A stretch of DNA of 23,078 bases from a virus, in IMG/VR virus record IMGVR_UViG_3300037134_000178, positions 1-23,078 of that record; one strand, written 5' to 3'. Below, one piece after another: positions 9,051 to 19,326 of the stretch; the stretch's first letter is position 1; the number at the start of each line of letters is the position of its first letter. The notes beneath the pieces are model-generated. The model searched no databases and was not told the origin of the DNA. It saw only the letters and a list, made by a program, of their open reading frames with translations. The position numbers and the translations under genes were made by a program.

Positions 9051-9545
9051 CTAGCTTACTAAGCTGATTTCTCTCTTCGATGAATTTTCAGTAATGACGT
9101 TTTGCATCAACTCTGTTCTGCGAGACATATTCTCTGGAGTCAGAAGATCGCGACGCCCGCGCTCTCCAGTTAACTCCGTCATCTCGATTGCCCACTCGAC
9201 CAGCTTCCTTTTCAGGATTACGTAAGGTCGAACGTACTCAAGAAACGGTCTCGCGTTTTTGCCGGTCATCCTGAGTGAGTAGCAGGGCTTTTTCTCTTTT
9301 TTAGTACCCTTGCGAACAGGACAAACAACATCTCCAAGATCATTGGTGAACTTCAATCCAATTAGCGTGAGCAACGTCGGTTCCGATTGAGTAATGGTCA
9401 CCGAGAGGCGCGGATAGTTCACTCCGCTCCCGTTGTGCCGATTTGTGATAGAGATACAACCTTCTCCATCGAAAAACCCCGCCAACCACTGCGGCGTGAG
9501 CCTCTCGGTAGAAATCTCTAGCTCGGATTGGATCAATGTTGCCAT
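9051..9545 (-). CDS. Free-standing LAGLIDADG homing endonuclease
   Basis: The gene encodes 164 aa from ATG at 9545. Residues 21-29 read LAGFFDGEG, a clear single LAGLIDADG helix with the catalytic acidic residue, followed by CISITNR and a basic beta-rich DNA-binding portion (RLSVTITQSE, PCYSLRMTGKNARPFL). One motif means it should act as a homodimer. The C-terminal third is helical (LKRKLVEWAIEMTEL). The gene occupies the space between the decoration-like gene and the capsid gene, not inside an intron or intein that I can detect. Its base and codon use look more AT-rich than the neighbouring structural genes, which fits recent transfer. The upstream ribosome site is weak. Confidence 0.86.
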   Translation of the reverse strand: MATLIQSELEISTERLTPQWLAGFFDGEGCISITNRHNGSGVNYPRLSVTITQSEPTLLTLIGLKFTNDLGDVVCPVRKGTKKEKKPCYSLRMTGKNARPFLEYVRPYVILKRKLVEWAIEMTELTGERGRRDLLTPENMSRRTELMQNVITENSSKREISLVS

Positions 9546-9553
9546 GATTTTCG

Positions 9554-10432
9554 TTAGACCTGCTGTGCAGCCGGCAGGAATTGGAACAAAAGCTGTCCGT
9601 TGGGGACTTCCGTGATGGCACTGGTCTGGGTAATGTCCCCAGGATAGAGGCCGATCACGGTCAGAACTGTGTTGGTTCCCGGTGTGGTCGAGTTGAAATC
9701 GATGTACCAGTTGCCGCTCGCATCTTCGGTCAGGCCATATTGCTTGCCCACTGAAGTAATGGTCGGAACGACGGATCCCGGCGTGTCGGTTCCGGTTCCT
9801 GCGGTGGCAATGACGGTTCCGGTCAGAGTGGTCTGTGCGGTGTAGGCCGAACCTGAGGCCGTCAACACCTTGCCAACCAAACCATTCAGCGGAATGCCCG
9901 CGCCCGTGAATCCGGCAAACACAACATTCTCGCCCACGTAATGCACGTTGGTTGCGGTCACAGAAACAATCCCGGTGGTCGCAAGCGCCGCGGCCGTAAT
10001 GGTCGTGGTGCCTTCCGAGGTATCGGTCTGGGCCTTGAAAATGGTGTCCTGAGTGGCTACCATGGTCAGCAAGCCGCCGGTAATGAACGGCGCGCCGTAA
10101 GGGATCGTGACTGCCGAGGGTTGATTCGGGGGAGCGCCAATCGAAATGTTGGCCCACGGTGGCCCGATCTGGCCGAAGTTGGCCGGAGCGCCCGCGCCCG
10201 AGGTACCCAGATTGTCGCCTGGCTGCAGACTGACGCCATAGATGCCGGCCGTAATGGTCGTTCCATCCCAAACCTTCGCATAGCCGGTGGCGTTCAATTG
10301 CACCGGAGCGCCCAGGGTCAGCAAGGTTGCCGTCTGGCCCGAGGCCTGCAGCGGGTTCTGAGTCAGCTCCGTGTTGCCGGAGATGGTCTCATACATGGTG
10401 ATGGGTACGTGACTCGAAAGGTTCGTTGCCAT
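9554..10432 (-). CDS. Head decoration/stabilisation-like protein
   Basis: The gene encodes 292 aa from ATG at 10432, chosen because AAGGAG ends 5 bases before it; a GTG two codons earlier would overlap that site. The chain is almost all short beta strands with Gly/Thr-rich turns. It starts with an arm (ITMYETISGNTELTQN), then a block reading GAPVQLNATGYAKVWDGT followed by ITAGIYGVS. That pattern of beta strands with 'W-D-G' then 'A-G' recurs in capsid decoration proteins encoded just upstream of coat genes. The rest holds repeated T-x-T strands and ends GQLLFQFLPAAQQV. Other possibilities are head fibre or structural cement. The position is strong support, the family is moderate. Confidence 0.6.
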   Translation of the reverse strand: MATNLSSHVPITMYETISGNTELTQNPLQASGQTATLLTLGAPVQLNATGYAKVWDGTTITAGIYGVSLQPGDNLGTSGAGAPANFGQIGPPWANISIGAPPNQPSAVTIPYGAPFITGGLLTMVATQDTIFKAQTDTSEGTTTITAAALATTGIVSVTATNVHYVGENVVFAGFTGAGIPLNGLVGKVLTASGSAYTAQTTLTGTVIATAGTGTDTPGSVVPTITSVGKQYGLTEDASGNWYIDFNSTTPGTNTVLTVIGLYPGDITQTSAITEVPNGQLLFQFLPAAQQV

Positions 10433-10454
10433 TGTCACTCCTTAAAATCAAAAC

Positions 10455-12101: not shown

Positions 12102-12250
12102 TACTCTTCCTTCCGCGGCTCATGGATTTTCCCAGCCATGTGCGGCTTCATCTTGCGAATGTGACCATGCGGCGCCGCGGTGTGGGGCGGGTGATGGGAC
12201 AAGACCTTCAACTGTTCTTTCAGATTGGGATCGTTCTCGAATTTGTTCAT
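12101..12250 (-). CDS. His-rich miniprotein (49 aa) between portal and helical protein
   Basis: ATG at 12250 overlaps the portal stop as ATGA, and its TAA overlaps the next start as TAATG. The protein starts MNKFENDPNLKEQLKVL and continues SHHPPHTAAPHGHIRKMKPH, then a charged tail ending PRKEE. Seven His residues in 49 suggest metal or nucleic-acid contact, or simply a flexible arm; I recognise no family. The exact overlaps on both sides are strong support that it is translated. A short length makes it easy to miss in automated annotation. Confidence 0.62.
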   Translation of the reverse strand: MNKFENDPNLKEQLKVLSHHPPHTAAPHGHIRKMKPHMAGKIHEPRKEE

Positions 12251-14166
12251 TGGATTTTCTCCGGTGGTGCCTGGTTGACCGGCATGGCACCGTTAGGCGG
12301 CGGCGCGCCGGGTTGCGGAGGCTGTTGACCTTGCGGCGGCGGTGGCTGTTGTGTCTGCGCTGCTTTTACCTGCTGTTGCTGCTGCTCATTCTTCTCGACC
12401 AACTGGTGCGTCTGCGGCACCACGCTCTGACCACCTTCATGGATGCCGAAATTCCTCACCGCCCAGCGCATCATGGTATTCAATCCCTGCAGCGCTTCGG
12501 CCAGATAAGTCTTGGTATCGGGCGGCGTCATTGGGTTCTCGATCATGGAAAGCATCTGCACTGCCTGCTGGTAATGCTGGCGCAGGTTCTGCATCATCAT
12601 CATCAGGTTCTGCTTCTCGACCTCACGATTGACCGAGGCATTGGCCGGTTTCACCCGCACCTGCATGATGCCGGTCGAATACGACTGAAGAGCTTCCTCA
12701 AGCAATCCGCGATCGTCGCCATAGCGCTTCAGAATTCGGGTGTCGACGCCAAAGTGAGCATGCAGGCCCAGCAAAGTCTCGCCCAGCAGGACGTGGGCAT
12801 TGCGAAACATGGCCAAATGCATGTCGGTTCGGGAATTGCCTTCCTGCATGACCGACATCGTTCCCATGGCAGAATAGACGCCGCGCTTGTTGGGCCCGCC
12901 CGATCCGGCACCTGAAAAACTCGGCTGCACTCCCGCGCGCTGGGCGGCTTCCGTCATGACCAACTGTTCATCCTGAATGGTCTCGACCGGATTTCTTCCC
13001 AACTGCAGCCATTCCAAAGTCCCCGGCGGGGCGGGAATGATGCCCATGGGATACAAAGTCGTCATGGTATCGAGCTGCGAACCGGGTGTGACGCGCAGCA
13101 CGTTGGTATTGGCGCAGGTGGCGGCATCGCGGCGCTGGTTATGGATCTGCGTTACTTCTTCCTGGTAGTCCTGCAGGGCCTCGATGAGTCCGAGGCCGTA
13201 GGCACGGTCGCCTTGTCCGCCGAAGCGGATGAGCAGGAATTCATCAATGCCGGCCGGATAGAAGCGGAAAATCGCCTTGGGGCAGGCTTTGGTCTCAGGA
13301 TAGAGGGTCAGGATGCAGTCGAACGTCTGTCGATTGTGCTCGAATTTGATGTGGGTCTCATAGATCGTGAAAACCTGCGATTCCTGCGTTCCGGAGGGGC
13401 TGATCTTCTGGTCCGACTGCACATCTTTTCTCGGCTGGTCGGATTCGGTCTGGGTAGGGCCGGCCAGAATCTTCTCGCCTTCCACCTTGTCCCATGCGCC
13501 CGAAGCAATCCGCTCCATAATGGCCCAGCGGGACAGATGCACGGCCTGGGCTTTGATCGGCATCCTCGAGACCGGCATGACTTCCGGCGGCATCAGAAAA
13601 TCCTCATACGCCACCGGCGTCAGGATGGGGCCTTTGTAACCGGCAATTTTTTTGGTTGATTCTTTGCCCGTAACCAGGATCGATTCATCTTCGACCACAT
13701 TGACCTTCAACGCCTGGCAGCCGTAGCCGATGGCATTGCGGAACCAGGTGTACTCGGTTTCGAGGATGTTCATAGTGGCCGGGTCGGAGGATGTCTGGAC
13801 CAGAAAATCTTCCAGCAACTCGCGCTTGCGTTCCGGCTGCAGCTTGGCCGGCAGAGAACCCATGACCTGCAGCGGCCAGAGCGGCAGGGTATTGTGGATG
13901 CCCATCACCATTCGGGCTGCCATCTGGTCGGTGAAGGACGCGACCAGTTGCACCACAACATTGCTGGCATACTGCCACGGAAACGATTTGATTTCCTCTT
14001 TGGGCCGGCCTTCGAGGATTCTCCGCATATCGGTCACGCGGGAAGTGCGGAGCGCGCGCAACTGGGTTCTCAGGGTATCGAGATAGCGGAAAGAATAGGC
14101 CTCAAGCGCGGCCATGGTGTCGGGTCCGAAGTATTCTTTGCACTGGACAATCTTCGGCATTCCCAT
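12247..14166 (-). CDS. Portal protein (P22/SU10-type)
   Basis: The gene encodes 639 aa from ATG at 14166, chosen because it overlaps the small gene's stop as TGATG; a TTG one codon upstream and an ATG two codons downstream are alternatives. The portal forms the ring through which DNA is packaged and ejected. Key features are RFGGQGDRAYGLGLIEALQD followed by the helix YQEEVTQIHNQRRDAAT, and a long C-terminal helical region containing QNLMMMMQNLRQHYQQ. These match the wing and 'G-x-G-x-x-x-x-x-x-D-Y-Q-E-E-x-T' signature of podovirus portals. The last 45 residues are Pro/Gln-rich (QQQQQ, then PPPPQGQQPP) and probably disordered. The neighbours are terminase upstream and the scaffold candidate downstream. 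Confidence 0.85.
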   Translation of the reverse strand: MGMPKIVQCKEYFGPDTMAALEAYSFRYLDTLRTQLRALRTSRVTDMRRILEGRPKEEIKSFPWQYASNVVVQLVASFTDQMAARMVMGIHNTLPLWPLQVMGSLPAKLQPERKRELLEDFLVQTSSDPATMNILETEYTWFRNAIGYGCQALKVNVVEDESILVTGKESTKKIAGYKGPILTPVAYEDFLMPPEVMPVSRMPIKAQAVHLSRWAIMERIASGAWDKVEGEKILAGPTQTESDQPRKDVQSDQKISPSGTQESQVFTIYETHIKFEHNRQTFDCILTLYPETKACPKAIFRFYPAGIDEFLLIRFGGQGDRAYGLGLIEALQDYQEEVTQIHNQRRDAATCANTNVLRVTPGSQLDTMTTLYPMGIIPAPPGTLEWLQLGRNPVETIQDEQLVMTEAAQRAGVQPSFSGAGSGGPNKRGVYSAMGTMSVMQEGNSRTDMHLAMFRNAHVLLGETLLGLHAHFGVDTRILKRYGDDRGLLEEALQSYSTGIMQVRVKPANASVNREVEKQNLMMMMQNLRQHYQQAVQMLSMIENPMTPPDTKTYLAEALQGLNTMMRWAVRNFGIHEGGQSVVPQTHQLVEKNEQQQQQVKAAQTQQPPPPQGQQPPQPGAPPPNGAMPVNQAPPEKIQ

Positions 14167-14309
14167 CAATCAGTCCTCGACCTAGGAATTCTCATCTTAG
14201 CTCCAACCCACCAAAGGGCGGCATCGAAACTTCCGAAACAATTTACCGGATAGCCTCGATATTCGACGATCCACCAGGAGCTCGACTTGAATATTCTTGG
14301 CTTGTCCAT
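14166..14309 (-). CDS. Small hypothetical protein between terminase and portal (47 aa)
   Basis: ATG at 14309 overlaps the terminase stop as TGATG, and its TGA overlaps the portal ATG as TGATG. The product is MDKPRIFKSSSWWIVEYRG followed by a YPVNCFGSFDAALWWVGAK segment and a basic end. Five Trp/Tyr-rich strands and one helix suggest a compact folded domain. I do not know the family. The double overlap is strong evidence for translation and for coupling of terminase, this protein and portal synthesis. Confidence 0.6.
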   Translation of the reverse strand: MDKPRIFKSSSWWIVEYRGYPVNCFGSFDAALWWVGAKMRIPRSRTD

Positions 14310-16114
14310 CAATAGCCAGCCTTGCCGACCGAACGGCGTCTGCGGTCCATGTCGCGCTCGTAATTCTCTTTCCAACGGCTCATATCCACTTCCGCAGTCT
14401 CTACGATGTTGAAAAGATAGCCCATGCAATCGAGAAGATCAACGGTTTTCGCTTGCGGGTGCATGGAATACTCCTGCATAAAATCTTCCACCCCGCCGCC
14501 AGAAGCTCTCACGTGTACCTGGCCGCGCTCATAGAGCGGTGACATTGAAAGGATTCTGCGCTCCTTCGCTCCGGCACCGCGTTCCTTCGGCAAGGCTCTT
14601 ACAATCATCTTGGGATTCTTGTCGTAGAGATCGCGTTCAAAGTACCTGAGCCATCCGTCCTGCCCGGCAATGGTCTCGACGTAGAAGGTGTTCGCGTGCC
14701 AGCGCAGCGCCATCTGGCCCACGTGGGCAGCCATGGCATCGTGACTGACAGCCTTCGCCCAGGATTCGAGAAGATACAGTTCCTTCTGGCCTTTCTTGCC
14801 ATCCTGCCTGCGAACACCGACCACGATGGCGGCGTGGCGCGCGCGCCCAGTCTCTCCGCCGTGATTGGGATCGAGAATCAGGATTCTGTCGAGGTCCGAT
14901 ACCGCGATATCCTGCCGCACCACTCCCGACTTTCCGGGAATGTGCTCGATCACGGTTTTCTTCTGCGGCTCGCCATACACGTCGATGCCGCATTCCTTTT
15001 GGAACAGCCTGATCTTACCCAGCCAGGCATCGCGGAAGGTGCATTCTTCCTCCGTAATGGGCTGATTCAGATATTGCGCGGCAAATCCCCTGGGTCCGAA
15101 TCGGATTCTCAGATCATTCAATCGCTCGGCGGAGAATTCTTCCGGGAAGATTGGTTCTCCCGCCGGATGTTCGTCGCAGCATCCACCCAATGCGGAATGC
15201 CGTTCGAACCTGAAGGTCGGATTGTTTTCCCTTATCCATCCGTTAAAGTCGTACATGCCCCAGCGATTGCCGATAATCAGCTCCAGATTTCTGAATCCGG
15301 GGGCCAGCTTGTCGGTGTCGAAGGCTCCGGGGAGTCTTTGGTGCCACTCGATGACCTGCTCTGCGACCGACGGAGAGTAGAGAGCTTTCTCGCCAAAGAG
15401 ATCATCTTCCACGGCCTTGTCGTAGTGGCGGGACTGCAGCGCGGAGCCGGCCGAGATGAGGTCATAGGTTCCTTCTCCTGAACTGCTATTTCGTTTGTGG
15501 GTCATGGACGATTGATTCCAGTTGGCGCCCGTTCCTGGAATCAGATCGTGAAACACATCCCTGAAAAGGTCGTTCGACTTGTACTGGGCATCGATACGGA
15601 TGCCGATCTTGATGATATTTTCTTCCGTCTGGCTGGCAATAATGGTCCGGTTATTCACCGAATGGAGTCTCTTCATGTGGCGAACCCACTCGTCGCCATA
15701 GCCGAGGGCGCGCATCCAGTCTTCCTCTTTCGAATCGAAGGGCAACGCCCACCAGATCGGGAGCGTCACGGATCCAAGAGACGTTTTCAGATGGTCCCGA
15801 GGCGCTTCGAGAACCAGCCGCAGGTCGGCCACTTCGAGTGATTTTGCCCATTTACCGTGCAGATGGCCGACAAAGCGATCCATCTTGAGAACGACTTTTC
15901 CGAAGAAATAGAGACTGCCCAGCGCATTCAGCCGCAGCGCCGCCAGACGCGACGGCTCCGACATCTTCTCATGCCAGGGAAGGAAGCGCCATTGCTCGAG
16001 CGGGGCTTCCTGATCGATCTCAATTTTGAGATGTTTGTCTTCCGGGACGTCGGATTCAATGGTGGGCGTGTGTCTGAGTTCTTCGGCAATCAGCGCGTCG
16101 ATTTCGGACGGCAT
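14309..16114 (-). CDS. terL: Terminase large subunit (packaging ATPase-nuclease)
   Basis: The gene encodes 601 aa from ATG at 16114, overlapping the small-terminase stop as TGATG. It powers DNA packaging into the prohead and cuts the concatemer. The N-terminal ATPase has a Walker A-like APRDHLKTS at residues 104-112 and a Walker B KAVEDDLF at 233-240 with D237/D238, followed by a GNRWGMYD motif near 282. The C-terminal RNase H-like nuclease shows ILILDPNHGGE (D415), VETIAGQ (E480) and DLLDCMGY (D559, D562), the expected acidic triad. The length fits the family. The Walker A is the deviant form (R-x-x-x-K-T/S) common in terminases. Confidence 0.92.
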   Translation of the reverse strand: MPSEIDALIAEELRHTPTIESDVPEDKHLKIEIDQEAPLEQWRFLPWHEKMSEPSRLAALRLNALGSLYFFGKVVLKMDRFVGHLHGKWAKSLEVADLRLVLEAPRDHLKTSLGSVTLPIWWALPFDSKEEDWMRALGYGDEWVRHMKRLHSVNNRTIIASQTEENIIKIGIRIDAQYKSNDLFRDVFHDLIPGTGANWNQSSMTHKRNSSSGEGTYDLISAGSALQSRHYDKAVEDDLFGEKALYSPSVAEQVIEWHQRLPGAFDTDKLAPGFRNLELIIGNRWGMYDFNGWIRENNPTFRFERHSALGGCCDEHPAGEPIFPEEFSAERLNDLRIRFGPRGFAAQYLNQPITEEECTFRDAWLGKIRLFQKECGIDVYGEPQKKTVIEHIPGKSGVVRQDIAVSDLDRILILDPNHGGETGRARHAAIVVGVRRQDGKKGQKELYLLESWAKAVSHDAMAAHVGQMALRWHANTFYVETIAGQDGWLRYFERDLYDKNPKMIVRALPKERGAGAKERRILSMSPLYERGQVHVRASGGGVEDFMQEYSMHPQAKTVDLLDCMGYLFNIVETAEVDMSRWKENYERDMDRRRRSVGKAGY

Positions 16115-16713
16115 CAGTTCACCGTTTCAGGCTTGGGCTTGATTCCGAACTCTTCCATGGTGGCATCGTTGACGGCAGGAATCTTTGAGATCGGCTGCAC
16201 CTGGGTCTGCACCCTGCTGGTCTTGGGCATTCTTCCGTCGCGGTCGAGAATCTCACGGGATGCCTGCAAACGAAGCTGCGCGTCGTTGCCCTCCAGATGC
16301 GAAGCCAACACTTCAATCGATTGCGGGACCAAGGACGCAACCCGCATCTTCATCCGCTCCACATCCTTCATCAGCTTGTCTTCGACGCCGGTATTGTGGG
16401 CTTCCTTCAGCTCCCACAAACGCCGCTTATACGACGCCGACTTCCTCAGCTTGACGGCATGGGGACGGGACACTTTCAGCAGGTCGGAAATTCCGTCCGG
16501 ATCCATGATGTAGCAATAGTCCATGTCGGCCAGGCGCGAGGCCTGAACTTTCTCGATATCGGAGGTTTTGCGGACAATCTCCCTCAGCGCAGCTTGCCTT
16601 TTCTTACTGGCTTCCGAGAATGGCTTGGGCGGTTCTTTCCTGACCCGCTTATACTTGCCGGTCAGCTTCGACTGCTCGAAATTGGGGCCGCCTTCGTTGG
16701 TGGGAATTTTCAT
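16114..16713 (-). CDS. terS: Terminase small subunit (candidate)
   Basis: The gene encodes 199 aa from ATG at 16713. This start is preferred over one 16 codons upstream because GAGG lies near it and the ATG overlaps the preceding TGA as ATGA. The N-terminus is basic and probably disordered (KLTGKYKRVRKEPPKPFSEA). A helix-turn-helix-like part follows (DPDGISDLLKVSRPHAVKLR), then long helices (KLMKDVERMKMRVASLVPQS, AQLRLQASREILDRDGRMPK). The pattern of DNA-binding head, helical oligomerisation core, and 'R-E-I-L-D-R-D-G-R-x-P-K' end is common in small terminases. It is directly next to the large subunit. The assignment is from arrangement and pattern together. Confidence 0.74.
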   Translation of the reverse strand: MKIPTNEGGPNFEQSKLTGKYKRVRKEPPKPFSEASKKRQAALREIVRKTSDIEKVQASRLADMDYCYIMDPDGISDLLKVSRPHAVKLRKSASYKRRLWELKEAHNTGVEDKLMKDVERMKMRVASLVPQSIEVLASHLEGNDAQLRLQASREILDRDGRMPKTSRVQTQVQPISKIPAVNDATMEEFGIKPKPETVN

Positions 16714-17426
16714 TTTGCTTTCCTCATGAACCCCATAACTTCGCCGCGGCGCATCAGGCAACAGACCTGGTCGCCATGGATGTGGATTCCGGCCATCCTG
16801 GAGAACAAGACTCGATCCCCCGGCCGCAAATCCTGAATATCGGCTCCCACCGCCATGATGTCGCCGTAGGAATGATCCTGCTTCGATGCGTCTGGAATCG
16901 CCAGAACTCCGGGAGCAAGGCCAGAACCTTTACAGCCGGCGCATGGAGTGAACCCGCAGGCCGCGGGAACCTGATTCTCCGATCCGACAATCACGCAGTC
17001 GGGACAGCACTCCGGTTTCCAGCCTTCTTTCCTGACAATCGACTTCGTTCCCTTACAACTCAGACACTCGAATTTCAAATGCCCAACACCCTGACAACTC
17101 TCGCACACATACCCTTCTTTGAAGCTGGCGTACTTGACCAGCAGCCTGTCATCCAAAGGCGTGATCGACCAGCCGCGCAGCAAGGGCTGTGAAGCCTGAG
17201 ATAGATCGAGCAGCTTTACTCTTGGGTCGGGCTTCCACGCAGAAAGTGCCGCTGGGTTCTGCTCCACCTTCTCATTCACCCAAAAGTCATTCCCTCGCAC
17301 TATCTCCTGCTCCGCTGCATGAGCCCGAGTGAAATCCACTACCCCATCGCTCGACCGATCGTTCCCTACCATGGCATTGAATTCCCGCTCGTCCATCTTG
17401 CCGTTCGTTATGCTCACATCCGCCAT
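16710..17426 (-). CDS. GroES-like co-chaperonin with inserted DnaJ-type zinc finger
   Basis: The gene encodes 238 aa from ATG at 17426, with GAGG 8 bases upstream. The first 86 residues are charged with no family I know. Residues 87-100 (WSITPLDDRLLVKY) match the first GroES strand (P-L-x-D-R-V-x-V-K). Residues 173-236 match the rest: GVLAIPDASKQ (the GroEL-contact 'G-I-x-I-P-D' loop), then YGDIMAVGADI and RPGDRVLFSRMAGIHIHG. Between them, 101-172 carries four CxxC pairs (C108/C111, C121/C124, C141/C144, C162/C165), two of them in CxxCxGxG form as in DnaJ. GroES normally has only about 17 loop residues here. It is coupled to the small-terminase candidate by ATGA. A co-chaperonin for head-protein folding is inferred. 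Confidence 0.8.
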   Translation of the reverse strand: MADVSITNGKMDEREFNAMVGNDRSSDGVVDFTRAHAAEQEIVRGNDFWVNEKVEQNPAALSAWKPDPRVKLLDLSQASQPLLRGWSITPLDDRLLVKYASFKEGYVCESCQGVGHLKFECLSCKGTKSIVRKEGWKPECCPDCVIVGSENQVPAACGFTPCAGCKGSGLAPGVLAIPDASKQDHSYGDIMAVGADIQDLRPGDRVLFSRMAGIHIHGDQVCCLMRRGEVMGFMRKAK

Positions 17427-18424: not shown

Positions 18425-18643
18425 ATGACCAATAGCCAACAACTAGCACAGAAGATACAAGATCATCTGAAGTCTGGCGGTGCGGTTCGGTTCTGCACTT
18501 ATGCTCGTTGCACCATCCTTTCCGCAAAGCACGCTTCGCTGATCTTCGGTTCAATCAAAGAGCAGCCAATGAATGGTGTTTACATGCAGCGTGGCAAGTC
18601 CAATGATTTCTGGCTTGAACAGTACATCGCATTCAGCAAATGA
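18425..18643 (+). CDS. Small hypothetical protein (72 aa)
   Basis: ATG at 18425 is chosen over one five codons upstream because GGAGG at 18412-18416 is 8 bases before it; the upstream ATG itself overlaps that site. The protein has a helical start (NSQQLAQKIQDHLKSGG), then an alpha/beta part (AVRFCTYARCTILSAKHASL) and a C-terminal aromatic segment (SNDFWLEQYIAFSK). Two Cys, C30 and C35, might be paired, but there is no clear metal motif. No family is known to me. The leader is nearly identical to that of the next gene, which suggests that the genes of this island share expression signals. Confidence 0.55.
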   Translation: MTNSQQLAQKIQDHLKSGGAVRFCTYARCTILSAKHASLIFGSIKEQPMNGVYMQRGKSNDFWLEQYIAFSK

Positions 18644-18671
18644 CACAGCATTCAACATGGAGGCAACAGAG

Positions 18672-18938
18672 ATGAGATTCGATGAGCTTTACATTGGTCA
18701 GATGTTCTTTCATGCGTCGAGCATGAACACGGCTGCAGTGTTTGAGAAGAAGTCTAAGACTAGCGCTTTCACGCTTCACCCCGTGACAAAAGAGCGCGCC
18801 AAATTACCCTACTATGCACGCCCGATCTGCGAGTTTAGCGGAAGCGTAGAAGTGCAACCCTTCGCAGAGCAGGCTATCAACGCCCCCGCATTCCAGCCAA
18901 ACATGCTAGTTCCAACTAAAAAGTACGACCACGAATAG
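18672..18938 (+). CDS. Small phage accessory protein, tandem paralogue 1
   Basis: The gene encodes 88 aa from ATG at 18672 with GGAGG 8 bases upstream. It starts MRFDELYIGQMFFHASSMNT, continues AAVFEKKSKTSAFTLHPVTK and then RAKLPYYARPICEF. The gene at 19129 encodes a shorter protein of the same plan, with 'M-R-F-D-x-L-x-I-G-x-x-F-F', 'F-E-K-K-S-K' and 'T-L-H-P-V-T-K-E-R'. This small beta-barrel-like layout ('x-x-L-x-x-G-x-x-F', then 'K-x-S-x-x-x-A') is frequent in small phage and plasmid proteins of unknown role. The extra C-terminal 23 residues are absent from the paralogue. No enzyme motif is seen. Confidence 0.68.
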   Translation: MRFDELYIGQMFFHASSMNTAAVFEKKSKTSAFTLHPVTKERAKLPYYARPICEFSGSVEVQPFAEQAINAPAFQPNMLVPTKKYDHE

Positions 18939-18946
18939 GGGCTAGC

Positions 18947-19126
18947 ATGAGCGGCATTAAATCCCCGCGCTGCGGTCGCGGCCACAAGTGGGACGGCATC
19001 CGCGGCAACGGCCAGCGCTATTGCAAGAAATGCAAACTCATCACGCAAGCTGCCAATCGAAAGAAATTAGCAGCTCAACCGAAAGTCAGCAAACGCGATC
19101 CAATCACCGGACTCTGGAGGTACTGA
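18947..19126 (+). CDS. Zinc-binding miniprotein (59 aa)
   Basis: The gene encodes 59 aa from ATG at 18947 and has a strongly basic product. It reads SPRCGRGHKWDGIRGNGQRY, then CKKCKLITQAANRKKLAAQ. C9, H13, C26 and C29 have the 'C-x3-H ... C-x2-C' order of a zinc ribbon, followed by a basic helix, so nucleic-acid binding is plausible. The last codons supply the GGAGG ribosome site of the following gene, and the stop lies two bases before its ATG, so the genes are tightly packed. It lies between two tandem paralogues and could be part of the duplicated unit or inserted into it. No family name is claimed. Confidence 0.6.
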   Translation: MSGIKSPRCGRGHKWDGIRGNGQRYCKKCKLITQAANRKKLAAQPKVSKRDPITGLWRY

Positions 19127-19128
19127 AA

Positions 19129-19326
19129 ATGAGGTTTGATAAATTACCTATCGGCGCAATATTCTTCTGTGGATTCAGCTTAACAACCAGCGCGCTCTTT
19201 GAGAAGAAGAGCAAGAGTACTGCATACACGCTCCATCCCGTTACGAAAGAACGCACCCAGTTGCCACAGTTTGCTCGTCCGATTGTTGGATTTGGCGCCT
19301 ATGTCAGAGTGGAGCCGCTCGCATGA
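19129..19326 (+). CDS. Small phage accessory protein, tandem paralogue 2
   Basis: The gene encodes 65 aa from ATG at 19129, preceded by GGAGGTACTGAAA. It starts MRFDKLPIGAIFFCGFSLTT, continues SALFEKKSKSTAYTLHPVTK and then RTQLPQFARPIVGF, aligning almost residue for residue with the first 65 residues of the protein at 18672. Conservation is highest in the 'F-E-K-K-S-K' and 'T-L-H-P-V-T-K-E-R' blocks. The pair probably arose by tandem duplication. The shorter C-terminus may be the ancestral form or a truncation. Its stop overlaps the next start as ATGA. Confidence 0.66.
   Translation: MRFDKLPIGAIFFCGFSLTTSALFEKKSKSTAYTLHPVTKERTQLPQFARPIVGFGAYVRVEPLA

Follow-up and report, generated by a model that had tools for sequence, protein, structure and literature searches.

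A probable viral GroES-like co-chaperonin with a DnaJ-type zinc-finger module in its mobile loop, encoded beside the terminase genes

The window analysed here is a stretch of 23,078 bases from an IMG/VR virus record, and all coordinates are positions within it. Its minus strand carries a structural and packaging block that runs leftwards through the small terminase, large terminase and portal genes, several unknown genes, and the major capsid gene. The first gene of this block encodes a GroES-like (Cpn10) co-chaperonin with a cysteine-rich insert, and its TGA stop shares bases with the ATG of the small terminase gene in an ATGA overlap. The features of the gene and its neighbours are shown in Table 1. 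The first-pass annotation had placed the gene at the head of a late operon; the gene order fits this proposal, although no convincing promoter was found.

Table 1. Coordinates of the co-chaperonin gene, the parts of its product, and the neighbouring packaging and head genes.
Feature	Position	Strand	Basis or remark
Zinc-finger co-chaperonin gene	16710..17426	-	238 aa + stop; ATG at 17426, TGA at 16712-16710
N-terminal extension, residues 1-85	17172..17426	-	conserved DRSSDG...F.RA..AEQE..R motif
Cpn10 first part, residues 86-104 (WSITPLDDRLLVKYASFKE), first barrel strand	17115..17171	-	identity 89-95%
Inserted DnaJ-type zinc-finger module, residues 105-171, in mobile loop	16914..17114	-	alignments, profile comparison, shuffles
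CxxC motif 1, C108-C111, full CxxCxGxG	17094..17105	-	invariant in all homologues
CxxC motif 2, C121-C124, CxxCxGxK	17055..17066	-	invariant
CxxC motif 3, C141-C144, first Gly of motif lost	16995..17006	-	invariant
CxxC motif 4, C162-C165, full CxxCxGxG	16932..16943	-	invariant
L175-A176-I177, equivalent of GroES mobile-loop I25-V26-L27 that docks on GroEL	16896..16904	-	alignments
Cpn10 remainder, residues 172-238	16713..16913	-	Cpn10 profile, joined flanks, alignment, pLDDT, Foldseek
Small terminase subunit	16114..16713	-	PHROG 2538, E=7e-4
Large terminase subunit	14309..16114	-	PHROG 38, E=4e-49
Portal protein, SU10-like	12247..14169	-	Pfam PF23899, E=6e-7, slightly below its cut-off
Major capsid protein, 317 aa	8078..9031	-	Pfam PF25209 + PF10124, PHROG 371

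Other parts of the window carry features of separate interest. An ORF for a LAGLIDADG homing endonuclease (9051-9581, minus strand; Pfam PF00961, E=1.9e-6) is flanked by the major capsid gene and by the gene at 9554-10438, which it slightly overlaps. On the plus strand, the adjacent ORFs 18573-18938 and 18988-19326 have near-repeated sequence (MRFDxLxIGxxFF...ALFEKKSKxxAxTLHPVTKER) and appear to be a tandem gene duplication; neither gave a family match. The minus-strand segment 20166-20498 shows a strong match to PHROG 503 (unknown function; E=3.5e-35) and a weak likeness to DUF559 nucleases.

Relatives of the co-chaperonin were found in three further IMG/VR records, which encode two distinct proteins of 53-59% identity; two of these records show no difference across the 1,000 bases of the locus that were compared, and only three distinct sequences are known for the family. 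In all three distinct contigs the gene lies just upstream of the small terminase, large terminase and portal genes, bearing out the expectation that homologues would adjoin terminase genes. The proposed coupling to the small terminase also holds: the gene is directly upstream in each contig, and the stop/start overlap recurs in one relative (L003) to give ATGA in two of the three, with a gap of ∼160 bases between the co-chaperonin gene and the small terminase region in the other (L001). Scans of 84,980 bacterial and archaeal genome species with the protein and the portal returned no relative, and in the phage collection any match extended over no more than about a quarter of the protein. Viral scans with the large terminase and portal yielded no further family member, the terminase scan giving only a distant locus (L011, 27% identity), and a scan for CxxCxGxG plus the motif spacing gave 59 matches of which only the known members are real, the others being chance frames. 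The four family records, which may be fragments so that absence is not proof, yielded no GroEL gene, and the GroEL of the host is thus the expected partner.

Residues 86-104 and 172-236 form one Cpn10/GroES domain. The Pfam Cpn10 profile (PF00166) matches residues 173-232 with 28.6 bits (curated cut-off 21.1; E=1.4e-6), and the cut-off is exceeded in all four family records; the NCBIfam GroES models cover the same region, and the co-chaperonin family PHROG 3188 also matches (E=2e-4). The protein shares with GroES the PLxDRxxVK first strand, the GxIxAVG and GDxVxF motifs of the beta-barrel core, and a hydrophobic tripeptide at the mobile-loop docking position, although the insert interrupts that loop. 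It differs in having a 67-residue mobile-loop insert with four CxxC motifs, no roof hairpin, and an 85-residue N-terminal extension.

Because the first GroES strand lies outside the Pfam match, the insertion needed a separate test, for which residues 105-171 were deleted in silico, the flanks joined, and the products rescored with Pfam Cpn10. The score rose by 9-11 bits in each of the three distinct proteins (from 27.9 to 38.8, 34.4 to 44.5, and 29.6 to 38.6), and the start of the match moved from profile position 22-24 to position 2, such that the joined flanks span positions 2-91 and account for a complete barrel, first strand included. When the first strand was reversed as a control, the score was 26.8 bits, with no gain. 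An alignment of the three joined cores retrieved full-length co-chaperonin matches from the PDB, the best being Cpn20 in 7ekq (8e-10), with GroES in 8wuw at 2.5e-6, and aligned over 84 columns with GroES sequences from E. coli and phages (E=1.9e-8). An unguided MAFFT alignment of 38 sequences likewise placed the insert after the first strand and before the mobile-loop tripeptide. The first-pass annotation had described a zinc finger spliced into the mobile loop of a GroES-like protein, and both the deletion test and this placement agree with it.

Structure prediction is in keeping with the profile results. AlphaFold2 was given the same number of sequences, 38, comprising the three of the family and 35 viral GroES; with the family sequences alone it reached a pLDDT of only 28, and that model was not used. 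In the model used, most of the Cpn10 core has pLDDT >90 (residues 191-230 being above 90) and the strand at 94-99 has ∼95. The insert is poorly modelled, with pLDDT <50 over most of 103-178, and the N-terminal extension is predicted to contain helices, mostly at low to middling pLDDT. Foldseek places Cpn10 structures at the top (3e-5 and up), together with viral GroES models, and also matches T4 gp31 (1g31, E=8.6e-3). The alignments to Cpn10 structures and gp31 are ∼160 columns long, the length one would expect for matches that bridge the insert and take in the C-terminal part as well as the first strand. As GroES sequences were present in the input, the AlphaFold2 and Foldseek results are support and not independent proof. 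A lack of Cpn10 fold in the flanks, which would have spoken against the proposal, was looked for by profile, PDB search and modelling and was not seen.

The insert is in frame in the first half of the mobile loop, with the GroEL-binding tripeptide one or two residues further on. Its eight cysteines are invariant in all homologues found, even though the insert overall is only 53-58% identical between family members, compared with 69-89% for the core, which is the most conserved part of the protein; loss of cysteines among relatives had been named as a result that would tell against the proposal, and none was seen. The four CxxC motifs have the same order as in the DnaJ cysteine-rich domain (PF00684) and its kin, with full CxxCxGxG in motifs 1 and 4 only. 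Motifs 2 and 3 are degenerate and lack the full GxG, the spacing of motifs 3 and 4 is longer than in DnaJ, and no J domain was matched in the 238-residue protein. PF00684 itself stays below its cut-off of 32.7 bits, with sub-threshold matches in two relatives (16.0 and 15.2 bits; E=0.015 and 0.026), no match listed for the insert of the window, and nothing found in a search of whole records. BSD2 and anti-TRAP have DnaJ-like zinc domains, and these match the insert as weakly as PF00684 does. A match to the zinc domain of GRXCR1/2 (best E=1.5e-5) is below the cut-off of that family, and we take it to be a cysteine-rich look-alike.

Comparison of the insert profile with nine DnaJ zinc fingers by hhalign brings all four CxxC motifs into register (E=1.7e-7, probability 93.8), in line with the DnaJ-type pattern noted at first pass, albeit below the Pfam threshold. 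Likeness beyond cysteine spacing was tested by permuting the non-cysteine columns 200 times with the cysteines fixed; all 200 shuffles scored below the observed 38.35, the best at 33.25. Judged from these profiles, the likeness to DnaJ zinc fingers is real, though weaker than the Cpn10 evidence. In DnaJ, CxxC motifs 1 and 4 jointly make up one zinc site, which draws the two ends of the domain close to each other; such an arrangement is well fitted to insertion in a loop.

GroES contacts GroEL through its mobile loop. In the family the docking tripeptide is hydrophobic in all homologues (LAI, LAM or MAI; IVL in E. coli), and the loop is interrupted by the insert. For comparison we used a pattern scan for ordinary GroES, with 80 viral loci among the matches listed. 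In 78 of these, 8-10 residues separate the first strand from the GG motif, and inspection by eye gave the same for the other two, as against ∼74 residues in the zinc-finger protein; thus none of the 80 other viral GroES among the matches listed has a long mobile loop.

The roof hairpin is absent from the zinc-finger protein, with ∼9-10 residues fewer between GxIxAVG and GDxVxF. Roofless viral GroES without an insert occur in IMG/VR and in phages phiKT1024 and phi46:3, and as gp31 and several viral GroES also lack the roof, it does not define phage members. The roofless form is therefore already known, and the mobile-loop insert is what appears to be new. An origin of the family from roofless phage GroES is unsupported, in that a tree of the cores places it on a long branch with a roofed GroES, L150, the support being modest (92/85); roof loss was thus probably a separate event. 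The N-terminal extension of ∼85 residues, unusual for GroES and not discussed in the first-pass annotation, matches no known family; it is 39-64% identical between family members and under purifying selection. Purifying selection was found in all domains where dS could be estimated, with dN well below dS.

The closest known systems include phage co-chaperonins. T4 gp31 is needed for head-protein folding; it lacks roof loops, has a longer mobile loop that gives a larger chamber, and serves the T4 capsid protein (PMC6318259). The zinc-finger protein resembles it as a roofless phage gene product with a lengthened mobile loop and a fold match, but the loop of gp31 has only 22 residues and no zinc finger, and identity in the fold alignment is 7%. 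Among phage genomes, direct search gave its best match (E=0.3; 30% over 26% of the protein) to the co-chaperonin of Vibrio phage phiKT1024, which together with its relatives is roofless and encoded two genes before the small terminase, but has neither insert nor N-terminal extension. In this distant 191-kb phage (L084) the arrangement occupies positions 890-2020.

We considered the 200-residue 'cpn10' of Cellulophaga phage phi46:3 as a second case and rejected it, since the long form has no CxxC. That phage (L229) has two cpn10 genes, at 28560-28814 (84 residues, roofless) and 41804-42406 (200 residues), and from its sequence the longer product apparently consists of two Cpn10 units in tandem.

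Two further systems parallel the insertion itself. HMO-2011-type phages have a partial DnaJ central domain inserted in their DNA polymerase (PMC9038755), and so share a DnaJ-type zinc domain inside a phage protein; the recipient is a polymerase, however, and only two CxxCxGxG motifs are present. The mobile loop of engineered human Cpn10 takes foreign peptides and heptamers are kept with suitable linkers (PMC5118791), although these are short, man-made insertions in the same loop with no GroEL function intended. The open-access literature, to which our search was confined, yielded no report of a zinc finger in a GroES, nor of a natural domain in the GroES mobile loop, in accord with the initial impression that the insertion is undescribed. 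Soil virus chaperonins have been detected as transcripts and peptides (PMC8390657), and such genes can therefore be active.

The protein most likely serves as a co-chaperonin, closing host GroEL over phage head or packaging proteins, and we give a probability of about one half to the specific reading in which the zinc module docks these clients. Seven roofless Cpn10 barrels would assemble into a ring and close off the host cell's GroEL, with each mobile loop keeping its hydrophobic tripeptide for docking. Just ahead of the tripeptide each loop would carry a compact two-zinc module, its ends meeting through the pairing of CxxC motifs 1 and 4 as in DnaJ. At the GroEL rim the module probably serves as a docking site for head or packaging proteins of the phage in their non-native state, and client capture and capping would thereby be coupled in one ring. 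The major capsid protein is a possible client. This account builds on the Cpn10 domain, the insertion site, the conserved cysteines, the DnaJ-type motif order and the terminase neighbourhood, with gp31 and the engineered human Cpn10 as precedents. Against it stand the poor modelling of the insert, the sub-threshold DnaJ likeness with degenerate motifs 2 and 3, and the small family; the insert, lying right beside the docking tripeptide, might also hinder GroEL binding, and for a capsid protein as small as 317 aa there is no obvious need of an enlarged cage. It is conceivable, albeit tentative, that the ring acts as a client-capturing lid, whose seven DnaJ-type fingers seize unfolded phage protein and deliver it into GroEL as the loops dock, merging Hsp40-like capture with GroES capping.

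In the main rival reading the zinc module does not bind clients but has a mechanical or specificity role: it stiffens or lengthens the loop, lifts the lid, or fits one host GroEL or paralogue, and so tunes GroEL affinity, specificity or cage size. The module lies exactly in the GroEL-contact loop beside the tripeptide, the longer loop of gp31 gives a larger chamber (PMC6318259), and the lower identity of the insert than of the core, apart from the cysteines, is as expected of a scaffold. We nonetheless consider this rather unlikely, since a folded module of 67 residues far exceeds the need when all 80 listed viral GroES manage with 8-10, and the CxxCxGxG glycines are retained in motifs 1 and 4.

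A ring of Cpn10 fold might instead be reused in packaging or head assembly without GroEL, binding terminase or DNA through its zinc fingers, for example. The constant neighbourhood of the small terminase, the ATGA overlaps, the similar gene order in phiKT1024, and an N-terminal extension and zinc fingers that could serve as binding modules are all consistent with such a role, but we regard it as improbable given that the docking tripeptide stays hydrophobic in every member and conservation is highest in the core. To our knowledge, phage GroES genes are otherwise all for co-chaperonins, which also argues against it.

A loop obstructed beside the docking site could make the protein a dominant poison, binding or blocking host GroEL and diverting it from host proteins. 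Phage capsid proteins often require GroEL, however, so inhibition would harm the phage, and the gene lies in a structural operon at the packaging genes; this explanation is very improbable. That the gene is an assembly chimaera or decayed, as a family of three distinct sequences might suggest, is already contradicted by the conservation in the sequences, with the same architecture, invariant cysteines and low dN on separate, diverged contigs.

If the proposed co-chaperonin ring works, it means that a device for client binding or selectivity can be built into a GroEL lid, and the mobile-loop module would be a ready-made part for the design of GroEL lids with chosen clients. For the virus, a zinc-finger lid may be a way to pick or position the proteins being folded and, if this is true, it bears on how phages steer the chaperonin of their host to their own proteins.
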